From: Blastocatellia bacterium
GTDB lineage: Bacteria > Acidobacteriota > Blastocatellia > Pyrinomonadales > Pyrinomonadaceae
NCBI GenBank assembly: GCA_003168335.1
Contig: PMSM01000010.1
Location: forward strand, 905,588 to 969,587
Reading direction: 5' to 3'
Length of the DNA: 64,000 nt
The position numbers and the translations under genes are program-made. Positions 20,286-55,741 of this stretch are shown one piece after another. How positions within the stretch are numbered: the first letter of the stretch is position 1; each line of letters starts with the position of its first letter. Under the pieces are notes generated by a model. That model was not told where the DNA came from and searched no databases. It saw nothing but the letters and a program-made list of their open reading frames with translations.

Positions 20286-20436
20286 TGGCGTAGTGTAACG
20301 CAGGCTGTCAGCATGCGCGCAAACTCCTGGACCCCGCCGGAGCAGCGCAGGCTCCCGGGCCGAGCATCTCGGCTGGGGTGCCAATCCCGTGCGGTGGCCT
20401 AAGAGTTTGCGTTGCGGATACCGGGATGAAACTCAT

Positions 20437-20585: not shown

Positions 20586-20662
20586 GGCGGGGTAGCTCAG
20601 ATGGTTAGAGCGTGGGATTCATAACCCCAAGGTCGGCAGTTCGATCCTGCCCCCCGCTACCA
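20586..20662 (+). tRNA. tRNA-Met (anticodon CAT)
   Basis: A full cloverleaf can be drawn: acceptor ggcgggg/ccccgct with a G1:T72 wobble, D-stem gctc/gagc, anticodon loop ttCATaa, T-stem ggcag/ctgcc with loop ttcgatc, and an encoded CCA end. The anticodon stem has an A31-C39 mismatch. The paired first position suggests elongator methionine rather than initiator, though lysidine-modified tRNA-Ile cannot be excluded from the anticodon alone. Confidence 0.9.
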
Positions 20663-20815
20663 ACCTATCTCATAACTTTTCAAAGAGTTACCGTCACTTC
20701 CGTTCTCAGCCAATCCGCCGTTTTCCCGCCGATGACGTGAAAATGACGTGATTTCGGATCCTCAGCTTTTTGGCTGAATTCAACTACCTTGTTGCCCTTC
20801 AACGCTAGTTTGTTC

Positions 20816-20971
20816 ACAGCGTGAGAGACTCGACACTCACCACTTTGAAGGCCCCATCGACGGCTGGCTCGGATCGCACAAATCGACTCGTGCACGAGAC
20901 GGATTTAGATTTCAGTTCACGATCGAGGACATGACGGAACCACACCTTGTCGGCGCGGACTAATAGTACAC
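20816..20971 (+). repeat. left copy of a 156-bp perfect inverted duplication
   Basis: The 156 bp are identical to the reverse complement of 30617-30772. They contain the last 46 codons and the stop of the BNR gene at 30625-34314. Beyond 20971 about 60 bp remain recognisably similar but diverged. The two copies bracket the RHS island. Confidence 0.9.
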
Positions 20972-21313
20972 AGTCTACATGGATCGATTGGGTGGAGGTC
21001 ACAACCCGGAAGTCTCTAGAGATCTTGAAGGAATTAGGGGTGGATCTAGCAGGGGTTACATTCCCTCGCAATTGACCAGATTCGTAAGAAGAAATCTTAG
21101 TAGAAAATGATAGTTTATCGCTGCGGTTCGGCGCGTTAAAGAATGAGCAGCAATTTAAAGAACCGGCAATTGCCCACGCTCGATGAAAGGTTTCGCTTGC
21201 TTATGCCATTCTTGATGAAACAGAAATGTTGAAGTGGCGAAAGCCGAGGCGTCGAGAGTTCGTAACGACGTTACAGTCAACCATCGTTCAGGAAATCAAA
21301 GAAGGACGTCGGC

Positions 21314-21460
21314 ATGCGGAGATTCATGGTTGTTCTTGTCGTACTCTTTGCGGTGCATGTGCAACTGCACGCGCAATCGTGTCAGCTCACCCTACAGGAT
21401 TTGAAACAGAACCCTGGCGCTCCACCAACCGAAGTAAACACGAGCGGAATCGATCGTTGA
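21314..21460 (+). CDS. small exported peptide or gene stub (48 codons)
   Basis: The ATG at 21314 is preceded by gaaggacgtcggc, a fair ribosome binding site. The product begins with a clean signal peptide MRRFMVVLVVLFAVHVQLHAQ and continues only 27 residues (SCQLTLQDLKQNPGAPPTE...) to a stop. It may be a genuine short secreted peptide, but it reads more like the head of a longer exported protein whose body was lost. The flanking sequence from 21072 to 21313 and 21461 to 21853 shows no other supported gene. Confidence 0.4.
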   Translation: MRRFMVVLVVLFAVHVQLHAQSCQLTLQDLKQNPGAPPTEVNTSGIDR

Positions 21461-21853
21461 GGAGCTAGTTTCAAGCCTTCAACTAATCATGTTCAAACCA
21501 CAGAATCGCTAGGCAGCGATAGGGTTTTTCTCTTCTAACGCCTCAAAATCTAGATGCCACCTTTTCAGCGAATCCCTTGCAGCGTGCTTCGATGGCTTGC
21601 TGGCTGGCGCGGACGCGTTGTTTCTCATGCATCCATGGCCGTGCTCCCTCGAGCTGGACGCGGAGGACACTCTCCAAAAAAGCCCTTGACATTTCGTTCT
21701 ATCAAGCGTAGCGTGCGCGCATCCGTAGCATGTTCTTTGGCAACAAAGAGTAAAAACGCTATCTCCTAGAGCTTACGGTTTTCCGCACGCTCGCCAGTTA
21801 GCCTTGTTTTCAACCCAGCGCTTCTTGCAGAGTGCTTTACTAAGGGGACCCTC

Positions 21854-24800
21854 ATGTCTTCCACTAATCCATCCAGTTGGCCATGGTTAAGCCGCTCAGC
21901 CTCCATCGCGCTCGTTCTTTGTTTGTTATCAAGTTCGACACCGGCGGCGCCAGAGACGATTGTAGCTGTGGCAAAGGAATCGAGCGTCGGCTTCGCGTTC
22001 TGGTATCAGGGCAGCGGGCTTGCCAAATTGATTCAAGGAAACGGCACGGGTAATGCGAAGGCGCAGGAGAAGCAAGCAGACCGCGATGCGAAGGTCAGCC
22101 GCATTCAGATTTTTCCCGGCGACGTGACCGTCGATCTCAGCGACCCTGTGCGATTCTCGGCAGTCGCTTACGATCGTGATGGTGATCCTGTCGGTGGAGT
22201 CAAGATCAAATGGAGCGGTCACGGCGCAACGGCTCAAGCCCGGGTGCGCATCTCGCCGCACGGCGAGTTCGAGGCGACTACGCCGGGTTCATTCACGATT
22301 ACCGCGCAGGCGGGTGGGAAGACAGCGCAGGTAACCGTCACGGTGCGCGCCGGTCTCAAGCGAGATTTGAAAGCGACTCCGACTGGCACGCACGAGGTCT
22401 CGTCGCGCGACGTTTCTACTGCAAAGATTGCGTCTGTCAAGGAACAGAAAAAGTCTGAAGGCGGCGCCGGACTTCAATTCAAGAGAAGCAATCGGCAAGG
22501 CGGAAGCAGCGCCTCCAGACGAGCGCACGCTAGCACCGCAAAGGTTACGACTGCGCCAGATCCGATGCCACAGGGCGGAGGTGGCGGTTGGGGCGACAGC
22601 AACTACTGGTCGGCAGGCAGACCAGAGAATCGAGTCGCCGATCCGCCAGGCGCCACCGTCGATGGCGGCGCTGGCAGCGGCAATTTCCAGTTTGCTGCAC
22701 CGGTCGTGAGCATGCCGGGTCGAGGAGTCAACATTTCACTCGGCCTCGCCTACAACTCCCGACTCTGGAATAAGGCGAACTCGCAAATCAATTATGACAA
22801 CGATCGTGGCTGGCCAGCGCCAGGGTTCAATCTGGGTTTTGGGAAGCTGCTCGGCATGGGTGTTTACAATGGCGGCATGCTCGTCGATGCTGACGGCACT
22901 CGCCATAGTTATACCGGCAATATCACCTTTTACAATTGGGGCACCTATGGTGTCATGCATACCATTGATGGTTCGCTAATTGACTACACCTATTGGACCG
23001 GCACCGGTGGCGGCCTCGTATCGGCCCAAGTACGACTTCCGAATGGAACGGTCATCAATTATGGCGCGGCAGGTCCGGGCGCGATCTATCCGACTTTTAT
23101 CGAAGACCCCAACGGCAACTACATCAGCATCACCTATGTCAACAACGCGGGGCCGCGCATTCAAACCGTTACGGACACGCTGAACCGCACAATCAGTTTC
23201 TCGTACGACTACAACAATCTACTAACCGCGATCACCGCGCCGGGATATACTGGCGGCACCAGGACGGTGGTCAGGCTGCACTATCATCAACTCGCACTCA
23301 GCTACGGTTTCAGCGGGCTAACGCCTTCCGTCAGAGATTCCTATCCGTGGGTGGTTGACGCGATTTATTATCCGGGAACCAGCACGGGCTACTGGCTCAA
23401 CGATTCCGATTCATATTCGAGTTACGGCATGTTGGCCAAGGTCGTGGAAGAACGGGGCATGGGGTTCTCAGCTTCTTCCCTCAACGACATGGGCAGCGCC
23501 TCGCAAGGCGCGATCACGCGCCGCGAGACTTATAACTATCCACTCACGCCGGACTACAGTCTTACTGATGCGCCGACTTACCCGTCTGTGCTTGAAGAGT
23601 GGACGCGCGACGGGGTGAATTTCGATTCGGCGACCACCGGCTATGAAGTTCACGAAAATGACAATCCGCGCACCACAACCATCACGCTCCCGAACGGCAC
23701 GAAGAGCAAGCAATACTCTTACAACGCGTCGGGCCAATACAATGATGGACTCGTTTATCATGACGTGACCTACGTCAGTGATGAAAACAGCCCGCTGCAA
23801 AGCAGCAACTCCTACTGGGAGCAAGGCGCTTACAACACTCCGCGGCCCACGCGAGTTGAAAAGACTGATGAGCGTGGACAAACAACGGCCGCGGCGTTCA
23901 GTTACGGAAGCGTTTACAATCAAGTCACGGAGGTGCGCAACTACGACTATGGCGGCAGCTCGCTTCTGCGCGCGACGCGCACGACTTATCAGAACAGCAC
24001 GAATTACACGGGAACATGTTACAGCTCCGGCTGTGTTGGCCGTCACATCTTCAATCTGCCGTCAAGTGTCGAAGTGTATGCGGCCGATTATTCGACTCGC
24101 GTAGCGCGGACGGAATATCAGTATGACGGTCAGAGTCTCAGCGCAGCTCCCAACGTCGTCATGCACGATCAGGCAGCCAACCCGCACGCTGCGGACGAAG
24201 GGTTTTGCTACACGGATTATGACTGGAACGATGGAGACTGCACTGGCAGTTGCAATCAGAACTGCCCGGATTGCATTCAGGATCGAACTTGCGACGGCTA
24301 TTGCCCGCAGATTTATGTTTGTCCCTACGATTCGTCGACTGACTTCCGCGGCAACGTCACCCAGGTGACGAGTTATGCCGATGCCATCAATCTTGGGGGT
24401 GCAGTTACGGAAACCCGGCGTTATGACATCACCGGTAACCTGGTGACGGGGGCTACTTCGTCCGAGCAGACTAGTTTCAATTACTCGGTAGACACGCAAT
24501 ACACCCATCCGCTCTCGAAGACGCAAGGCTCGGCTACAGACGCTTACGCCCAAGTCACCACCAGCGCAACTTATGATTTCTATACGGGCCTGGGACTTTC
24601 GGCAACAGATGTCAATGGCCGGCAATCGCAAGCCAGTTACGATACAAACACGCTTCGCCCGACGACTTCGGTTTCGCCCACGGGAGCGCACACCGACTTT
24701 GCTTACGACGACGCGGCGATGACCGTCACTTCGACCACTTATCCGACCGCTGGCACTGGCGGCGCGATCGCCGATCAGAGCGTGAAGATGCTGAACGGTG

Positions 24801-27800
24801 CAGGCCAAGTGCGCGTCGAGAAGGCCCGCGGTCCGGACAGCGGCGGCAATCAAACCTGGGATGAAGTTGATACCATCTACAACAACCTCGGCCAGGTGTC
24901 TCAGCAGTCAAGGCCATATCGTGTCGGCACAGAAACGCCCGTGACGAGCACCGTGGCTTACGATGCGCTGGGCCGCACGGTTAGCGTAACTGCGCCCGAC
25001 GGCGGTGTGACGCAAACTTTCTACAACGAAGCAAGCCGGCCAAGTGTAGCGTCAAGCAGTCCGGGAGAGACTACGCGCATGCAAGACTCCTGGGGTCGCG
25101 AGCGTTGGGGGCGTACGGATGCGAGCGGGCGACTGGTAGAAGTTGTCGAACCCGATCCATCAGGTGGCGGTTCGGTCGCCAGCTATGGCTTGGTGACAAC
25201 TTACAGCTACAACACACTTGGGAATTTGACGCAGACGAACCAGGGTGCGCAGACGCGTTCGTTCAAGTACGATTCACTCGGAAGATTAAACGGGCAGAAG
25301 TTAGCTGAACAGAATGCCACGCTCAATGACGCCGGAACCTATGTTGGTTCCGGAACGTGGAGCGATGTTTTCACTTACGACGATCGTTCGAATCTCACCT
25401 CGCGCACCGATGCGCGCGGCGTCAAGACTGTTTACACCTATAGCAGCGATCCGCTCAATCGCCTCCAATCCGTTTCGTGGGACACGAGCGGCTTTGGCGA
25501 TACGGCAAATCCGATTCTGTCGGCTGCGACTGTGAGTTATCAGTATCGTACCAAAGCAAGCCCGTCCGATTTGACAGATGTGACCCAACTCGCCAGTGTT
25601 ACCGCTTCAGGCGTGAGTACGGAAACCTATGCATTCGACACCGAAGCACGAGTCAGTTCAAAGACATTGACCTTGACCAGCCGTCCGTACTACCCAATGG
25701 TCACTGACTACACTTTCGATACGCTGGATCGCGTCACCGATGTGCGCTATCCGGCGGAGTATGGAAACGGGAGCGCGCCGCGCAAGGTCGTGCACCATGA
25801 CTATGACATCGCGAGCCGTTTGAGCGGTCTGACTTACGATAGTCAATCGTTTGCTTCAAGCATCGTCTACAACGCGGCCAGCCAGACGACTTCGCTCAGC
25901 GTGGGCACGGCCACGAATCAAGTTAATGAGAGCTACACCTACAACGCGCAAACCGGTTTGCTCGACAGTCAGTCCGCTACACGCGGAAGCACGCCACTGC
26001 TCAATCTCTCTTACGATTATACGAACTCAAGTGGCAAGCGCACGGGCCAGCTGACCAAGATTAGCAACAATCAGGATCACAACAAGGATCGCGGTTACGA
26101 ATACGATGCACTTGGCAGATTACAACGGGCTACCGGCGGGCAGAACGTCAACTGGGTGCAGCGCTACAACTATGATAGCTATGGCAATCGCTCCGACGTC
26201 TGGTCCTACACGGGGGATCAGTATGTAAAGAATTTATATCAGAGCGCCTTGAATCGGCAGCCGAACTCGACCGAGTTGCAAACCGCGCTCAGTAGTCTGC
26301 AGAGCGCCTACTCCCAGGGACAGTCTGCGTTTCTCACAGCGATGCAGGGCATAGGCGAAACGGTGTTCGGCGGGTCAGAGTATGCAGGTCGCAATCGTTC
26401 AAATCACGACTACGTTTACGACCTCTACAAAGCCTATCTCTATCGCGAGCCGGATGCAGGCGGCTGGGCCGCCTGGGAAGCGGCGCTTAATAACGGCAGC
26501 AGTCGCGCGGATGTGCGCAGCGGCTTCGCCTGGAGCGCAGAGTTTCAATTAAAGATCAAGGGCGTCAGTCCTTACGCGCCGCCGAACAACGGAGTGGTGC
26601 CGCCTGACGGCTTAACTGCGCTTGGATTCGACAGCGCTTCGAATCGGATTAACTCATCGGGCTTTGCGTACGACGCCGCCGGCAATCAAACGCGTGCATT
26701 AATTCCTGGCAGCACCACAATCTCGCAACGCTTTCAGTACGACGCTGCGAATCGTATGGTGAAGGTCAAGGCTGATGACAACTCGACGGTGTTGACGAGT
26801 TATACGTATGGCAGTTCCAATGAAAGATTGATGGCGGAAGAAGGAAGCCTCAGAACCTACTACGATTGCGAAGGCGGCTCGACTGTCGCCGAGTACATAG
26901 AGAGCGGTGGTTCGACGACTCCTGCATGGTCGAAGAGTTATTTGTACCTCGACGAGCGCTTGCTTTCAACACTCACTCCAAATGGAAGCGGCGGTGAAGC
27001 AGTTCAATATCATCATCCGGATCGATTGGGTACGCGTCTAGTCACCGATCCTTCAAGTGGAAGTTCATTCGAGCAGGTAGCGCTACCTTTTGGCACTGCG
27101 TTGGAATCCGAATCGTCTGGCCAAACGAATAGAAGATTCACTTCTTACGACCGCAGCACAACGACAAAACTCGATTACGCGGTCAATCGCCATTACGACT
27201 CGCAACAGGGACGATTCACTCAGGTCGATCCAGCAGGGATGAGCGCCACAAGTCTAGAGAGTCCGCAGACGCTCAACCTGTACGCTTACTGCGCCAACGA
27301 TCCGATCAATCAAACTGACCCAAGCGGCCTGGGCTTCTTTAGCTTCTTAAAGAAAGTCTTCAAGTGGGTTGTTGTGGCAGTCACGGTCGTTGTCGCTGTA
27401 CTAACCATAATTTACACTGGCCAAATCTGGGCCGCCGTAGGCTGGGTCAAGATGGCGCTTGGACTCATTGCGGCTGTCGCTAACGCAGCCTCGTCAGTCC
27501 TCACCGCCTTAGGCGTGAAAACAGCCGGAATGATTTTCGACATCATAGCGGCGGGCGCTAGTTTTGGTATCTCACTTGCCAATATTGCCGGTCACGCTCT
27601 GGAAAAAGTGAAGACCATCTTCAAAGCAATTCAGGACGGAGCTACACTAGCCAGCAAGACACTTACCGCCCTCGGGCACAAAATGGCCGGGCAAATCTTC
27701 GACCTTGTTAGCACCGTGGCAGGATTCATCTCAAGCGAGATCTCCAAAACAGCCGTGCCAGATCCCAAACATAAAGGGGAGTTCATCCACGAATGGAAGT

Positions 27801-28090
27801 TCAAGAAATGGGACATCTACAAATTCGTGAGAGCAGTAATCGAGAAGGGTGCAAATCTGGCCGGCGCGGAAAGGCTGAGCGGGTTCGTAAATGTGCTGGG
27901 TCTCGTTGACGACACGGGTGATATTATTATGGGGATTCAGAGCTTCGGAAATGCGGCTAAAGGCGGACCGCTCTCCAAGAGTCCAGGGATTCCTCGGTGG
28001 GCCGGCTGGTTTGAAAGGAGCTTACCGCTACTCAAGAAGGTCAACACCGCATTCGGGAGAATTGATAAAGCCGTCGCGCTGGCGCACTAA
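21854..28090 (+). CDS. exported RHS/YD-repeat protein with DUF4214 insert and C-terminal tip
   Basis: The 2078-residue product begins with a signal peptide (residues 1-32) and an Ig-like Big domain (about 81-165: IQIFPGDVTVDLSDPVRFSAVAYDRDG...). YD repeats run from about 260 onward, with many GxTxxxxYDxxGR-type units. Two insertions are notable: a cysteine-rich patch (8 Cys within about 40 residues, nt 24207-24330) and a DUF4214-like domain (residues about 1455-1575: LYQSALNRQPN...YLYREPDAGGWAAWEAAL...). The RHS core ends with NLYAYCANDPINQTDPSGLG near residue 1825. A 250-residue tip follows, with strong hydrophobic helices and a doubled unit (TALGVKTAGMIFDI / TALGHKMAGQIFDL). In such proteins the core is a shell around a variable C-terminal toxin or effector; the tip's activity is not recognised. 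Confidence 0.85.
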   Translation: MSSTNPSSWPWLSRSASIALVLCLLSSSTPAAPETIVAVAKESSVGFAFWYQGSGLAKLIQGNGTGNAKAQEKQADRDAKVSRIQIFPGDVTVDLSDPVRFSAVAYDRDGDPVGGVKIKWSGHGATAQARVRISPHGEFEATTPGSFTITAQAGGKTAQVTVTVRAGLKRDLKATPTGTHEVSSRDVSTAKIASVKEQKKSEGGAGLQFKRSNRQGGSSASRRAHASTAKVTTAPDPMPQGGGGGWGDSNYWSAGRPENRVADPPGATVDGGAGSGNFQFAAPVVSMPGRGVNISLGLAYNSRLWNKANSQINYDNDRGWPAPGFNLGFGKLLGMGVYNGGMLVDADGTRHSYTGNITFYNWGTYGVMHTIDGSLIDYTYWTGTGGGLVSAQVRLPNGTVINYGAAGPGAIYPTFIEDPNGNYISITYVNNAGPRIQTVTDTLNRTISFSYDYNNLLTAITAPGYTGGTRTVVRLHYHQLALSYGFSGLTPSVRDSYPWVVDAIYYPGTSTGYWLNDSDSYSSYGMLAKVVEERGMGFSASSLNDMGSASQGAITRRETYNYPLTPDYSLTDAPTYPSVLEEWTRDGVNFDSATTGYEVHENDNPRTTTITLPNGTKSKQYSYNASGQYNDGLVYHDVTYVSDENSPLQSSNSYWEQGAYNTPRPTRVEKTDERGQTTAAAFSYGSVYNQVTEVRNYDYGGSSLLRATRTTYQNSTNYTGTCYSSGCVGRHIFNLPSSVEVYAADYSTRVARTEYQYDGQSLSAAPNVVMHDQAANPHAADEGFCYTDYDWNDGDCTGSCNQNCPDCIQDRTCDGYCPQIYVCPYDSSTDFRGNVTQVTSYADAINLGGAVTETRRYDITGNLVTGATSSEQTSFNYSVDTQYTHPLSKTQGSATDAYAQVTTSATYDFYTGLGLSATDVNGRQSQASYDTNTLRPTTSVSPTGAHTDFAYDDAAMTVTSTTYPTAGTGGAIADQSVKMLNGAGQVRVEKARGPDSGGNQTWDEVDTIYNNLGQVSQQSRPYRVGTETPVTSTVAYDALGRTVSVTAPDGGVTQTFYNEASRPSVASSSPGETTRMQDSWGRERWGRTDASGRLVEVVEPDPSGGGSVASYGLVTTYSYNTLGNLTQTNQGAQTRSFKYDSLGRLNGQKLAEQNATLNDAGTYVGSGTWSDVFTYDDRSNLTSRTDARGVKTVYTYSSDPLNRLQSVSWDTSGFGDTANPILSAATVSYQYRTKASPSDLTDVTQLASVTASGVSTETYAFDTEARVSSKTLTLTSRPYYPMVTDYTFDTLDRVTDVRYPAEYGNGSAPRKVVHHDYDIASRLSGLTYDSQSFASSIVYNAASQTTSLSVGTATNQVNESYTYNAQTGLLDSQSATRGSTPLLNLSYDYTNSSGKRTGQLTKISNNQDHNKDRGYEYDALGRLQRATGGQNVNWVQRYNYDSYGNRSDVWSYTGDQYVKNLYQSALNRQPNSTELQTALSSLQSAYSQGQSAFLTAMQGIGETVFGGSEYAGRNRSNHDYVYDLYKAYLYREPDAGGWAAWEAALNNGSSRADVRSGFAWSAEFQLKIKGVSPYAPPNNGVVPPDGLTALGFDSASNRINSSGFAYDAAGNQTRALIPGSTTISQRFQYDAANRMVKVKADDNSTVLTSYTYGSSNERLMAEEGSLRTYYDCEGGSTVAEYIESGGSTTPAWSKSYLYLDERLLSTLTPNGSGGEAVQYHHPDRLGTRLVTDPSSGSSFEQVALPFGTALESESSGQTNRRFTSYDRSTTTKLDYAVNRHYDSQQGRFTQVDPAGMSATSLESPQTLNLYAYCANDPINQTDPSGLGFFSFLKKVFKWVVVAVTVVVAVLTIIYTGQIWAAVGWVKMALGLIAAVANAASSVLTALGVKTAGMIFDIIAAGASFGISLANIAGHALEKVKTIFKAIQDGATLASKTLTALGHKMAGQIFDLVSTVAGFISSEISKTAVPDPKHKGEFIHEWKFKKWDIYKFVRAVIEKGANLAGAERLSGFVNVLGLVDDTGDIIMGIQSFGNAAKGGPLSKSPGIPRWAGWFERSLPLLKKVNTAFGRIDKAVALAH

Positions 28091-28186: not shown

Positions 28187-28882
28187 ATGAAAACAATCGC
28201 ACTGTTGCTAGCTGGGTTCCTTTCGATTTTGAGCGCAGGGACGACCCTTGCTCAGAGTAAGCCGAAGCTTCCGCCTCAGCTGAACAAGGGTTCATCGCTA
28301 TCAGAAATCGTGGACTGGCTGGACAAGAACAGTTTCTCCCATGCACGGATTGGTCTGGAGTCTGACGGTCCTAATCTCGATCCAATGGAATCAATGATGT
28401 TTACGATTTCCGAGGGGCTGGTCTTCTCTTCCGGATTCAGGCTGGTTAAAGTCGACGGCTGTCGTTTAACTCTCAGGAATGATGAAGTAAAGGTGCTCAG
28501 CGGGTGGACGAATCGTACCGATAGCAACGAAATGAGTCTTGCCAATTTCGTGTGGGGTGGAAAGAAGGGAGAAAAGAAACTAACACCGCACTCAGCCGTC
28601 TTGTTCATCCCGCTCGACAAGATGCGTTACGGCAAGAAGCCCTATCAACATACTAAGAACCTGGAGCAAGCTAAATTGCTCGGAACGTGGCGGACTAAAT
28701 TCAAAGAGAAAGGGTTCTTTAAACGGTTTGTCTTTCAAATGGAGATCACCGCCGTTGAAGACCCTGAACTGAAGGGCAAGATGAAGGCTGGGACGCTGAC
28801 CTTTACGTTTGATGACAAGGCGATGAGCGAGCAGTTCAACGCAGCCTTCCGGCAAGCCATTAAGTTTTGTTCCTCGAAATAA
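28187..28882 (+). CDS. exported protein of unknown function downstream of RHS tip (candidate immunity or accessory)
   Basis: The 231-residue product has a signal peptide (residues 1-22, ending TLAQ) and no recognised domain. A GAAGGAGA motif sits 8 bp before the ATG. Residues 60-190 look like a mixed alpha/beta domain with C89 and a C-terminal cysteine. It lies 96 bp after the RHS stop, the position where cognate immunity genes of polymorphic toxins sit, and a decayed second copy of the RHS tip lies right after it. The immunity idea is inference from place alone; export would fit a toxin acting in the periplasm or membrane. Confidence 0.55.
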   Translation: MKTIALLLAGFLSILSAGTTLAQSKPKLPPQLNKGSSLSEIVDWLDKNSFSHARIGLESDGPNLDPMESMMFTISEGLVFSSGFRLVKVDGCRLTLRNDEVKVLSGWTNRTDSNEMSLANFVWGGKKGEKKLTPHSAVLFIPLDKMRYGKKPYQHTKNLEQAKLLGTWRTKFKEKGFFKRFVFQMEITAVEDPELKGKMKAGTLTFTFDDKAMSEQFNAAFRQAIKFCSSK

Positions 28883-28884
28883 GT

Positions 28885-29201
28885 AGCCGCGCGAAGACCT
28901 ACAAGTTCATCCGACGAACGGCCGAGAAAATTGCCAATCTTGCCGGCGCGAAAAGAGTGGGCGGGTTTCCTGAATGTGCTGGGTCTCGTTGACGACGCCG
29001 GTGATATTTATTTCGGCCTCAGGAGCATCGGCCAAATGGGTCAAGGACCATCCGTCGGTCCGGTCAACGCACCAATCCCTCTTGCCCAAATTTTTTTCAG
29101 GACCGAAGGGGGGGATTCCTGGCGACCTAGAAAGGATCTTGCCACTAATCAAAAAGGTCAACATTGCATTTGGGCGGATCGACACGACGATTACTTTGGC
29201 A
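28885..29201 (+). pseudogene. orphan, frameshifted copy of the RHS C-terminal tip
   Basis: Read in three successive frames, the segment matches the last 90 residues of the RHS protein: KTYKFIRRTAEKIANLAGAKRVGGF, then FLNVLGLVDDAGDIYFGLRSIG, then LPLIKKVNIAFGRIDTTITLA. Corresponding parent residues are IYKFVRAVIEKGANLAGAERLSGF, FVNVLGLVDDTGDIIMGIQSFG and LPLLKKVNTAFGRIDKAVALA. Two single-base-type shifts (near 28970 and in the t/g runs near 29095-29115) break it. This is the classic 'orphan tip' arrangement of polymorphic toxin loci, here decayed. A MITE-like element abuts its end. Confidence 0.85.
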
Positions 29202-29320
29202 GGTATTGTCAACTTAAGGTAAATATCACGGATCTTAGTACTTCATGTTGGGGACTGGTCCCTTCTGAGTGCCACAAATGGTGTCCATTTTCCCGGATCT
29301 TCACTTAAGTTGACAATACC
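29202..29320. mobile_element. MITE-like element with 17-bp perfect inverted ends
   Basis: The 119-bp element begins ggtattgtcaacttaag and ends with its exact inverse cttaagttgacaatacc. The same terminal sequence is at the ends of the two IS6-type transposase remnants (44189 and 55455). It has no transposase and is best explained as an internally deleted derivative. No clear target duplication is seen. Confidence 0.85.
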
Positions 29321-29473: not shown

Positions 29474-30382
29474 TTAAGGGGATAATCCTATTGACTGTCT
29501 TAGCGCTATATTGACATCGCTGTCGTTCTTGAAAAACTCCATCAAAAACGGATCGAGTAGAACAACCCTGGATCGGAGTCCAAATGCGCGCGGCCAATAC
29601 GTTTCCCATATATCGTCGATGTCGCATTGTGCACGATGGCATTTCCAAGATAGCCATGCAATCAGACCGAGGAAAATCAATTCTATAGTTAGGAGCTCCC
29701 AGTTATCCGTAAAGGAGAACAGTCTCAAAATCAGAACTGTGTAATAGTCATAAGCAACTCCTACAGAAAAGATCACGACCGGTAGTAGGTAGACTAATTT
29801 TGGCGCGATTCTCAATAATCGTCCTGTTATCTGATTTCGCATGCTTGGAACGGTGAATACTTGGTGCATCGCCAGTGCGTGATAGAAGGGATACAGTTTC
29901 TCGTGTTGGGTGGCTTCCCTAAATGAGAACGTTAAGTTTCTAATCTCACTAGAAAGGCAAAACCTCAATAGTACTAGAACTGCGATCAGGGATCCGCCCC
30001 CTATGAGGCCCAAGTCATTAATATCAAATGCAATCCCAAAAAAAGGCGCGCGAATGAAGTAAGTGTTATCAATATACGATCTTACCAAGGCCTTTTGGAA
30101 TTCCTCCCGAAACTCATCCTGTGGGATCTTTTCATGAATTTTGACCTGAAAGGCGGGGTTCATTTCCGGATTGAGCTTCTTTTCGACGAAGGTTGAATAG
30201 GGGTTGTAGGCGGCGCGAATTCGCTGGAGCATCCAAGCATTGTTGAGCGAATTATAAAACCCAGTGAAGACGAGTACGCAAGCCACCACTAAAACTATTA
30301 CCACCCATCGAGTCCGCTTGGCGGACTGCTCGCAAGCGTCAACATATTCCTTTACGTTGAATCGGGAGTGTGAAATATTCAT
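29474..30382 (-). CDS. membrane protein of unknown function
   Basis: The 302-residue product has an N-terminal helix (WVVIVLVVACVLVFTGFY), a soluble stretch of about 75 residues, then helices around IGGGSLIAVLVLLRFCL, LVYLLPVVIFSVGVAY and LLTIELIFLGLIAWLSW. The tail (QCDIDDIWETYWP...) is cytoplasmic-looking. No family is recognised. It is less GC-rich than its neighbours, in line with a foreign origin within the RHS island. Its place next to the orphan tip allows a membrane immunity role, but it is on the other strand and this is speculation. Confidence 0.6.
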   Translation of the reverse strand: MNISHSRFNVKEYVDACEQSAKRTRWVVIVLVVACVLVFTGFYNSLNNAWMLQRIRAAYNPYSTFVEKKLNPEMNPAFQVKIHEKIPQDEFREEFQKALVRSYIDNTYFIRAPFFGIAFDINDLGLIGGGSLIAVLVLLRFCLSSEIRNLTFSFREATQHEKLYPFYHALAMHQVFTVPSMRNQITGRLLRIAPKLVYLLPVVIFSVGVAYDYYTVLILRLFSFTDNWELLTIELIFLGLIAWLSWKCHRAQCDIDDIWETYWPRAFGLRSRVVLLDPFLMEFFKNDSDVNIALRQSIGLSP

Positions 30383-44188: not shown

Positions 44189-44682
44189 GGTATTGTCAAC
44201 TTAACTTCAGAAGAAACAAAATCAGGTACTCAGACAGGTTGAATCCACCTTCGTCATTTCATTAATTAACTGTCCCAACGACGCAAGTCGTCTCTTTCCA
44301 TACGGCGAATCTCGACTTCATTACTTCTCGGTAACCGCTCGCTCGGTACAGATGTCTCCCCACCCGGAAGTGTGAGGTAATGATTCCGAGGGCCGCGAGA
44401 AAGCGCTGCGCCTGACCGGCTGATTTGAACCGCCTCATCACCCTCTCTCGCAATCTGGTCGGCTGATGTGAATTCTCCGCTCGGTTGTTCTGATACTTCT
44501 GCCGGCGGTGCTCCACACCCGGCATCACCTCAGCCTTCGCCGCACTGTAGCTCTTTAGCTTGTCTGAAATGATCACACGCGGGACATAGCGCAATCCCTT
44601 CAATAGCCTGCGAAAGAACTTCTTGGCAGCGTTCTTATCTCTTCGGCTTTGGACCAGGATATCCAGCACATCCCCATCCTGA
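44189..44682 (-). mobile_element. truncated IS6-type insertion sequence (3' end)
   Basis: The right-hand end is the terminal sequence ggtattgtcaacttaa (44189-44204), shared with 55455 and with the MITE at 29202. The inner part encodes the C-terminal transposase half. The 5' half and the other end are missing. The break falls at about 44682, where a beheaded resolvase begins in the opposite direction. Confidence 0.8.
44262..44682 (-). pseudogene. IS6-family transposase, C-terminal half
   Basis: The frame reads QDGDVLDILVQSRRDKNAAKKFFRRLLKGL...VIISDKLKSYSAAKAEV...NNRAENSHQPTRLRERVMRRFKS, the DDE catalytic half of an IS6/IS240-like transposase. The second acidic residue lies in ISDK and the final glutamate in RAENSH. 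The first catalytic aspartate and the N-terminal HTH are gone. The protein would be inactive. Confidence 0.85.
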
Positions 44683-55454: not shown

Positions 55455-55741
55455 GGTATTGTCAACTTAAACTGATGAGGAAACACAACCACCATGTCAG
55501 ATTAGATCAACCCATACTTCCTCATCTTATCGATCGACGATCTCCTGCTTCAAGCTGGTGCTTGAGCCGCAATCACCTCTTCCCAAGTCATGAACCTCGA
55601 CCTCATCACTGCTCGGTAACCGCTAGCTCTATACAAATGTCTTCCCACTCGGAAGTGTGAGGTAATGATTCCGAAGGCCGAGAAAAAACGCTGCGCGTGG
55701 CCCGATGACTTGAACCGTCTCATCACCTTCTCTCGAACTTA
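55455..55741 (-). mobile_element. IS6-type insertion sequence remnant (3' end)
   Basis: Starts with the terminal sequence ggtattgtcaacttaa at 55455-55470. In reverse it encodes the last 45 or so residues of the transposase, homologous to 44330-44470 (for example ggaagtgtgaggtaatgatt is shared). The remainder is gone and the break abuts a beta-hydroxyacid dehydrogenase fragment at 55742. Confidence 0.85.

Follow-up and report, generated by a model that had tools for sequence, protein, structure and literature searches.

A candidate Sec-exported RHS toxin locus with a putative exported immunity protein and a decayed copy of the toxin end in a Blastocatellia bacterium

Organization of the RHS locus

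The locus described here lies within a 64,000-nucleotide stretch (hereafter, the window) of the genome of a Blastocatellia bacterium. It comprises a long RHS gene ending in a variable tip, a gene for an exported protein of 231 amino acids, a decayed copy of the end of the tip (the orphan) and a short inverted-repeat element. This layout is directly observed, and the open reading frames, their translations and the order of tip, 231-aa gene and orphan agreed with an earlier note on this DNA. The features are as follows (window coordinates, strand):

21854-28090, plus strand: RHS ORF of 2,078 aa (ORF call; Pfam RHS_repeat, E 5e-17; NCBIfam Rhs_assc_core, E 2.5e-16)
26387-26551, plus strand: DUF4214 domain between the RHS repeats and the core (Pfam PF13946, E 3e-17; the better of two stretches)
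27086-27331, plus strand: RHS-associated core, ahead of the tip (TIGR03696, residues 1745-1826)
27326-27595, plus strand: hydrophobic linker, the first ~90 residues of the tip, common to other RHS proteins of the order
27632-27727, plus strand: second, partial copy of the linker motif, an internal repeat (phmmer domain)
27773-28087, plus strand: unique C-terminal tip domain of ~105 aa, the candidate toxin domain, with no significant relatives elsewhere
28187-28882, plus strand: exported 231-aa protein, candidate immunity protein (ORF, homologs, weakly predicted PH-like fold)
28890-29201 (about), plus strand: orphan, a decayed copy of the last ~90 residues of the tip, with two frameshifts, no start and no linker
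29202-29320, no strand assigned: 119-bp element with perfect 17-bp inverted ends (GGTATTGTCAACTTAAG), which replaces the end of the orphan

The RHS protein is composed of a Sec-type signal peptide, an Ig-like N-terminal region, RHS/YD repeats and the core, and is closed by a tip of 254 aa. Its export route was assigned heuristically from the hydrophobic N-terminal signal, and neither a PAAR nor a VgrG domain was detected in a Pfam scan. Two DUF4214 stretches are present in the body ahead of the core; stretches of similar appearance to these inserts were also seen in ORFs of another locus (L085). Relatives of this RHS protein share the same core and carry unrelated tips, i.e., a variable C-terminus on a conserved body. 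The linker is 47-54% identical across ~90 residues to tips in G012 and G072, while its partial second copy scored 11.5 bits within its own protein and 19.9 bits against the linker of a relative (phmmer).

A search of 161 further genomes of the class gave no significant match to the unique tip domain, and the orphan is its sole relative in its own genome. Matches with E-values of 0.02-0.1 (L115, L116, L117, L120 and L124) were discarded, as they look like chance hits to unrelated proteins, a phosphomannomutase-like enzyme among them; a sixth weak match (L119) gave no clear identity. Neither a catalytic motif nor a known family was recognized in the domain with Pfam and NCBIfam, and folding of the tip as a single sequence yielded a poor model (pLDDT 48). 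The lack of recognizable catalytic residues, the partial duplication of the linker and the relic next door are what would be expected if the tip were not a toxin and the gene encoded a surface protein devoid of an effector, ending in a repeated linker and a degenerate end within a decaying locus. However, the RHS ORF is intact across 2,078 codons, the tip length after the core (252 aa) falls inside the 166-297 aa span of related tips, and there used to be two copies of the unique domain. We therefore regard a non-toxic tip as improbable.

The 231-aa gene starts 96 bp past the RHS stop codon on the same strand and is preceded by a good ribosome-binding site (GAAGGAGATCGCTATG), on which grounds it was considered the candidate partner of the tip. 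The N-terminus of its product, MKTIALLLAGFLSILSAGTTLAQ, has the appearance of a Sec signal peptide both by eye and by our heuristic, and no lipobox is present. In line with the earlier note, which had described a signal peptide and no known family, the protein had no Pfam, NCBIfam or PADLOC match above cut-off; Pfam matches to SAM_3 and Sharpin_PH were dismissed as below cut-off or weak. Scans for promoters and terminators around the gene gave nothing beyond chance. Homologs were found in seven other genomes of the order, plus one distant match in an eighth genome of the class, and two cysteines are conserved in every sequence of the family alignment; relatives were found neither in plasmids nor in the PDB. 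A contig profile search with the single sequence gave no match, while a two-row alignment recovered two loci. The fold predicted from a three-row alignment reached moderate confidence (pLDDT 66) and its top 50 structural matches were mostly PH-type domains, the best Z being only 6.4, and no significant E-value was obtained with Foldseek. Taking a sheet of seven strands capped by a C-terminal helix as the hallmark, the model suggests that the protein possibly adopts a PH-like fold, which we treat as a lead.

With regard to the genomic setting, a tRNA-Met gene precedes the RHS gene by 1.2 kb (within the interval 20586-21854). The sister genome G118 is syntenic upstream as far as the PALP gene (window position 20384), where clear similarity stops, and the stretch read beyond that gene contained no tRNA, RHS gene or partner. 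The absence of both RHS and partner there fits an accessory insertion, and the synteny break between the PALP gene and the tRNA-Met suggests an island.

The orphan tip and the inverted-repeat element

At the DNA level, the orphan matches the end of the tip with 84% identity over 86 bp (E 6e-22) and with 79% in a further block of 53 bp, and a global alignment gave 76% over 268 aligned bases. Covering the orphan takes three successive reading frames, so that it contains two frameshifts, and its decay is thus directly visible; the earlier description of ~90 residues shared with the tip and broken twice was borne out. It spans only the last ~90 of the 254 tip residues, with no core or linker homology upstream, and its last codons run into the 119-bp element. 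No further copy of the 231-aa gene, which would have been a sign of cassette duplication, was found behind it. The following gene (29474-30382) lies on the opposite strand, and behind the orphan there is no immunity gene to go with it. Beyond the tip and the orphan pieces, no other tip-like place was found in the whole 5.16-Mb genome.

The 16-base end of the element, GGTATTGTCAACTTAA, has 12 exact occurrences in the genome, compared with 0 in the backward control, with copies in the window at 44189-44204 and 55455-55470. These recurring ends are probably remnants of an insertion element, for which no transposase was identified.

The earlier note had read the order of tip, candidate immunity gene and orphan as the hallmark of loci that exchange tips by recombination. 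A functional silent cassette for such swapping would indeed be positioned behind tip and partner, and relatives in the order carry orphans consisting of core plus tip with a partner of their own. Here, by contrast, the orphan belongs to the toxin family of the live tip, so that a swap would leave the toxin unchanged. In addition to its frameshifts, missing upstream homology and missing immunity gene, it is followed by a gene on the opposite strand, and its end has been cut by the inverted-repeat element. We consider such a cassette extremely improbable, and tip exchange through the orphan was not upheld: as judged from its sequence, the orphan is a relic of the toxin end that the live tip also carries, and no reserve tip.

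The orphan Rhs tip of Salmonella LT2 is reported to be located behind the main gene, to be unlike the main tip and to be accompanied by an immunity gene; once recombination has fused it to the main gene, it can be expressed and deployed (Koskiniemi et al. 2014, PMC3967940). The orphan in the window, in contrast, derives from the live tip itself, is broken by frameshifts and has no immunity gene. The MafB/MafI islands of Neisseria, which comprise a secreted toxin, an immunity gene and C-terminal cassettes, some of them without an initiation codon (PMC4287609), resemble the window in the order of toxin, immunity gene and C-terminal cassette. However, the window has no MafB N-domain, and each Neisseria cassette has its own immunity gene (PMC4287609).

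Exported genes behind RHS tips in the order

The genes following RHS tips were surveyed in 38 further RHS stretches of the order and two stretches of the same genome. These were picked as best matches to the core and linker of the window, and the sample leans to close relatives; the RHS locus of the window is itself counted among the cases. When the core was at least 55% identical and the next same-strand gene of at least 130 aa was scored, this gene was exported-like in 29/31 cases vs. 24/55 among genes three to six positions downstream (Fisher p 2e-6). With one case per locus, the figure was 23 of 24 (p 5e-6), and under a looser rule 30 of 34 next genes were exported-like against a background of 43/128 (p 9e-9). 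Among more distant RHS genes, only 8/25 showed this arrangement. Export was called by a heuristic (a hydrophobic stretch or a lipobox) with a high background rate, so the weight rests on the contrast and not on single calls. Relatives in the order also contain arrays in which an RHS tip and an exported or lipoprotein gene are followed by an orphan core plus tip and a further exported gene. In this RHS clade, tips are as a rule followed by an exported partner, in almost all loci, which is unusual.

In several relatives, similar tips are paired with similar partners. Three tips with a CxPGxG...CxxHD signature are each immediately followed by the gene for an exported protein of ~400 aa, and two metalloprotease-like tips (HELRH in one, DELRH in the other) are followed by a DUF6438 protein:

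L101, 6485-7663: exported WD40-type partner, matching WD40 models
L104, 6405-7631: exported WD40-type partner, matching WD40 models
L109, 6185-7399: exported WD40-type partner, related to both the L101 and the L104 partners
L092, 6293-6850: DUF6438 behind a metalloprotease-like tip
L095, 1344-1937: DUF6438 behind a metalloprotease-like tip

An assignment of the CxxHD tips to PLA2 is weak, with E 0.009 for one tip, under the cut-off. Mutually related lipoproteins were found behind tips in L095, L092, L072 and L100; visual inspection showed a JAB-like HTHP motif in the tips of L095 and L072, and those of L092 and L100 are short or broken. Further related tips were an M23 peptidase (E 2e-19), an SLT-like domain (E 3e-4, just under the cut-off) and a DUF4329 domain, which is listed as Tox-JAB-2 in PMC3482391. 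The M23 and SLT-like domains fit action in the envelope; JAB-type tips give no pointer to the envelope, as nuclease activity has been suggested for them (PMC3482391). Taken together, the excess of exported genes and the homologous tips keeping homologous exported partners mean that the position behind the tip argues for immunity acting in the envelope.

The co-occurrence data bear on whether the 231-aa gene could instead be a standalone member of an exported family, lying behind the RHS gene by chance. None of its homologs in the seven other genomes adjoins an RHS gene, contig ends limiting some of these loci; no RHS core, linker or tip was detected in the fetched loci, and the gene contexts are varied. 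Likewise, the distant homolog in the eighth genome stands alone. The unique tip domain has no significant relative in any of the genomes that encode a homolog. The same pair, proposed earlier as something to be sought in other genomes (161 for the tip domain), was not found; it is known from one genome only, and the two families do not co-occur across the genomes searched. Occurrence away from RHS genes, which the earlier note had set against a partner role, is therefore real, but it carries little weight: in a control in which DUF6438 was sought in 118 genomes, this candidate partner, too, was mostly standalone, with 28 of 30 fetched places having no RHS core within 1.5 kb. Standalone homologs are thus compatible with a partner role, and adjacency to RHS is a weak test of little power in this clade. 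As exported genes are also found behind related RHS tips much more often than in the background, we consider a chance neighbour unlikely.

A putative envelope-directed toxin and its exported immunity protein

We favour, with a probability of about 0.58, the interpretation that the locus encodes a Sec-exported RHS polymorphic toxin with an exported immunity protein that neutralizes the tip outside the cytoplasm, the orphan being a dying duplicate. The Sec-exported RHS protein would carry an effector tip made up of the linker, its partial second copy and the unique ~105-aa domain, while the 231-aa protein would neutralize this tip outside the cytoplasm, thereby protecting the producer and its siblings. 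Toxicity, binding, protection and the site of action are what we infer from the layout; exported proteins encoded behind the tips of related RHS genes in the same family appear to act alike, and an immunity role of the 231-aa protein is likely. The orphan may be a duplicate of the tip end that remained after an earlier rearrangement and was then cut by the small inverted-repeat element. As to the polymorphic-toxin locus claimed at the outset, this framing is supported by the arrays of relatives and by the rule of exported partners; the tip exchange attached to it is not.

The locus resembles the Sec-exported RHS polymorphic toxins of Zhang et al. (2012, PMC3482391) in its signal peptide, RHS repeats and core, and likewise in its variable C-terminus with a candidate immunity gene directly behind. 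That survey named a single lipoprotein immunity family (Imm65) and reported beta-propeller immunity proteins as unseen; the RHS loci of this order, in contrast, have exported partners as a rule, three of them WD40-type. In the Imm65/Tox-JAB-1 pair (PMC3482391), an exported, lipobox-bearing immunity protein lies behind an RHS tip. The related loci with an HTHP tip and a lipoprotein resemble this pair, with no family model matched. Between the window and these Imm65-like loci no similarity was found for either tip or partner, and the partner in the window has no lipobox.

On its own, the locus would be one more polymorphic toxin of ordinary layout in a soil-type acidobacterium. At the level of the family, close RHS relatives are almost always followed by exported proteins, suggesting that the toxins act in the envelope of rivals. 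Tentatively, and at somewhat less than even odds, the RHS proteins of this family may form an envelope-aimed toxin system in which nearly every tip has an exported immunity protein. The partners would belong to domain classes not given as immunity proteins in the survey in PMC3482391 (WD40 beta-propellers, DUF6438 and a PH-like exported family), apparently recruited from standalone exported proteins. The pattern supplies several conserved tip-partner pairs in a little-studied lineage, among them WD40-type partners, a class said to be unseen by the major 2012 survey (PMC3482391).
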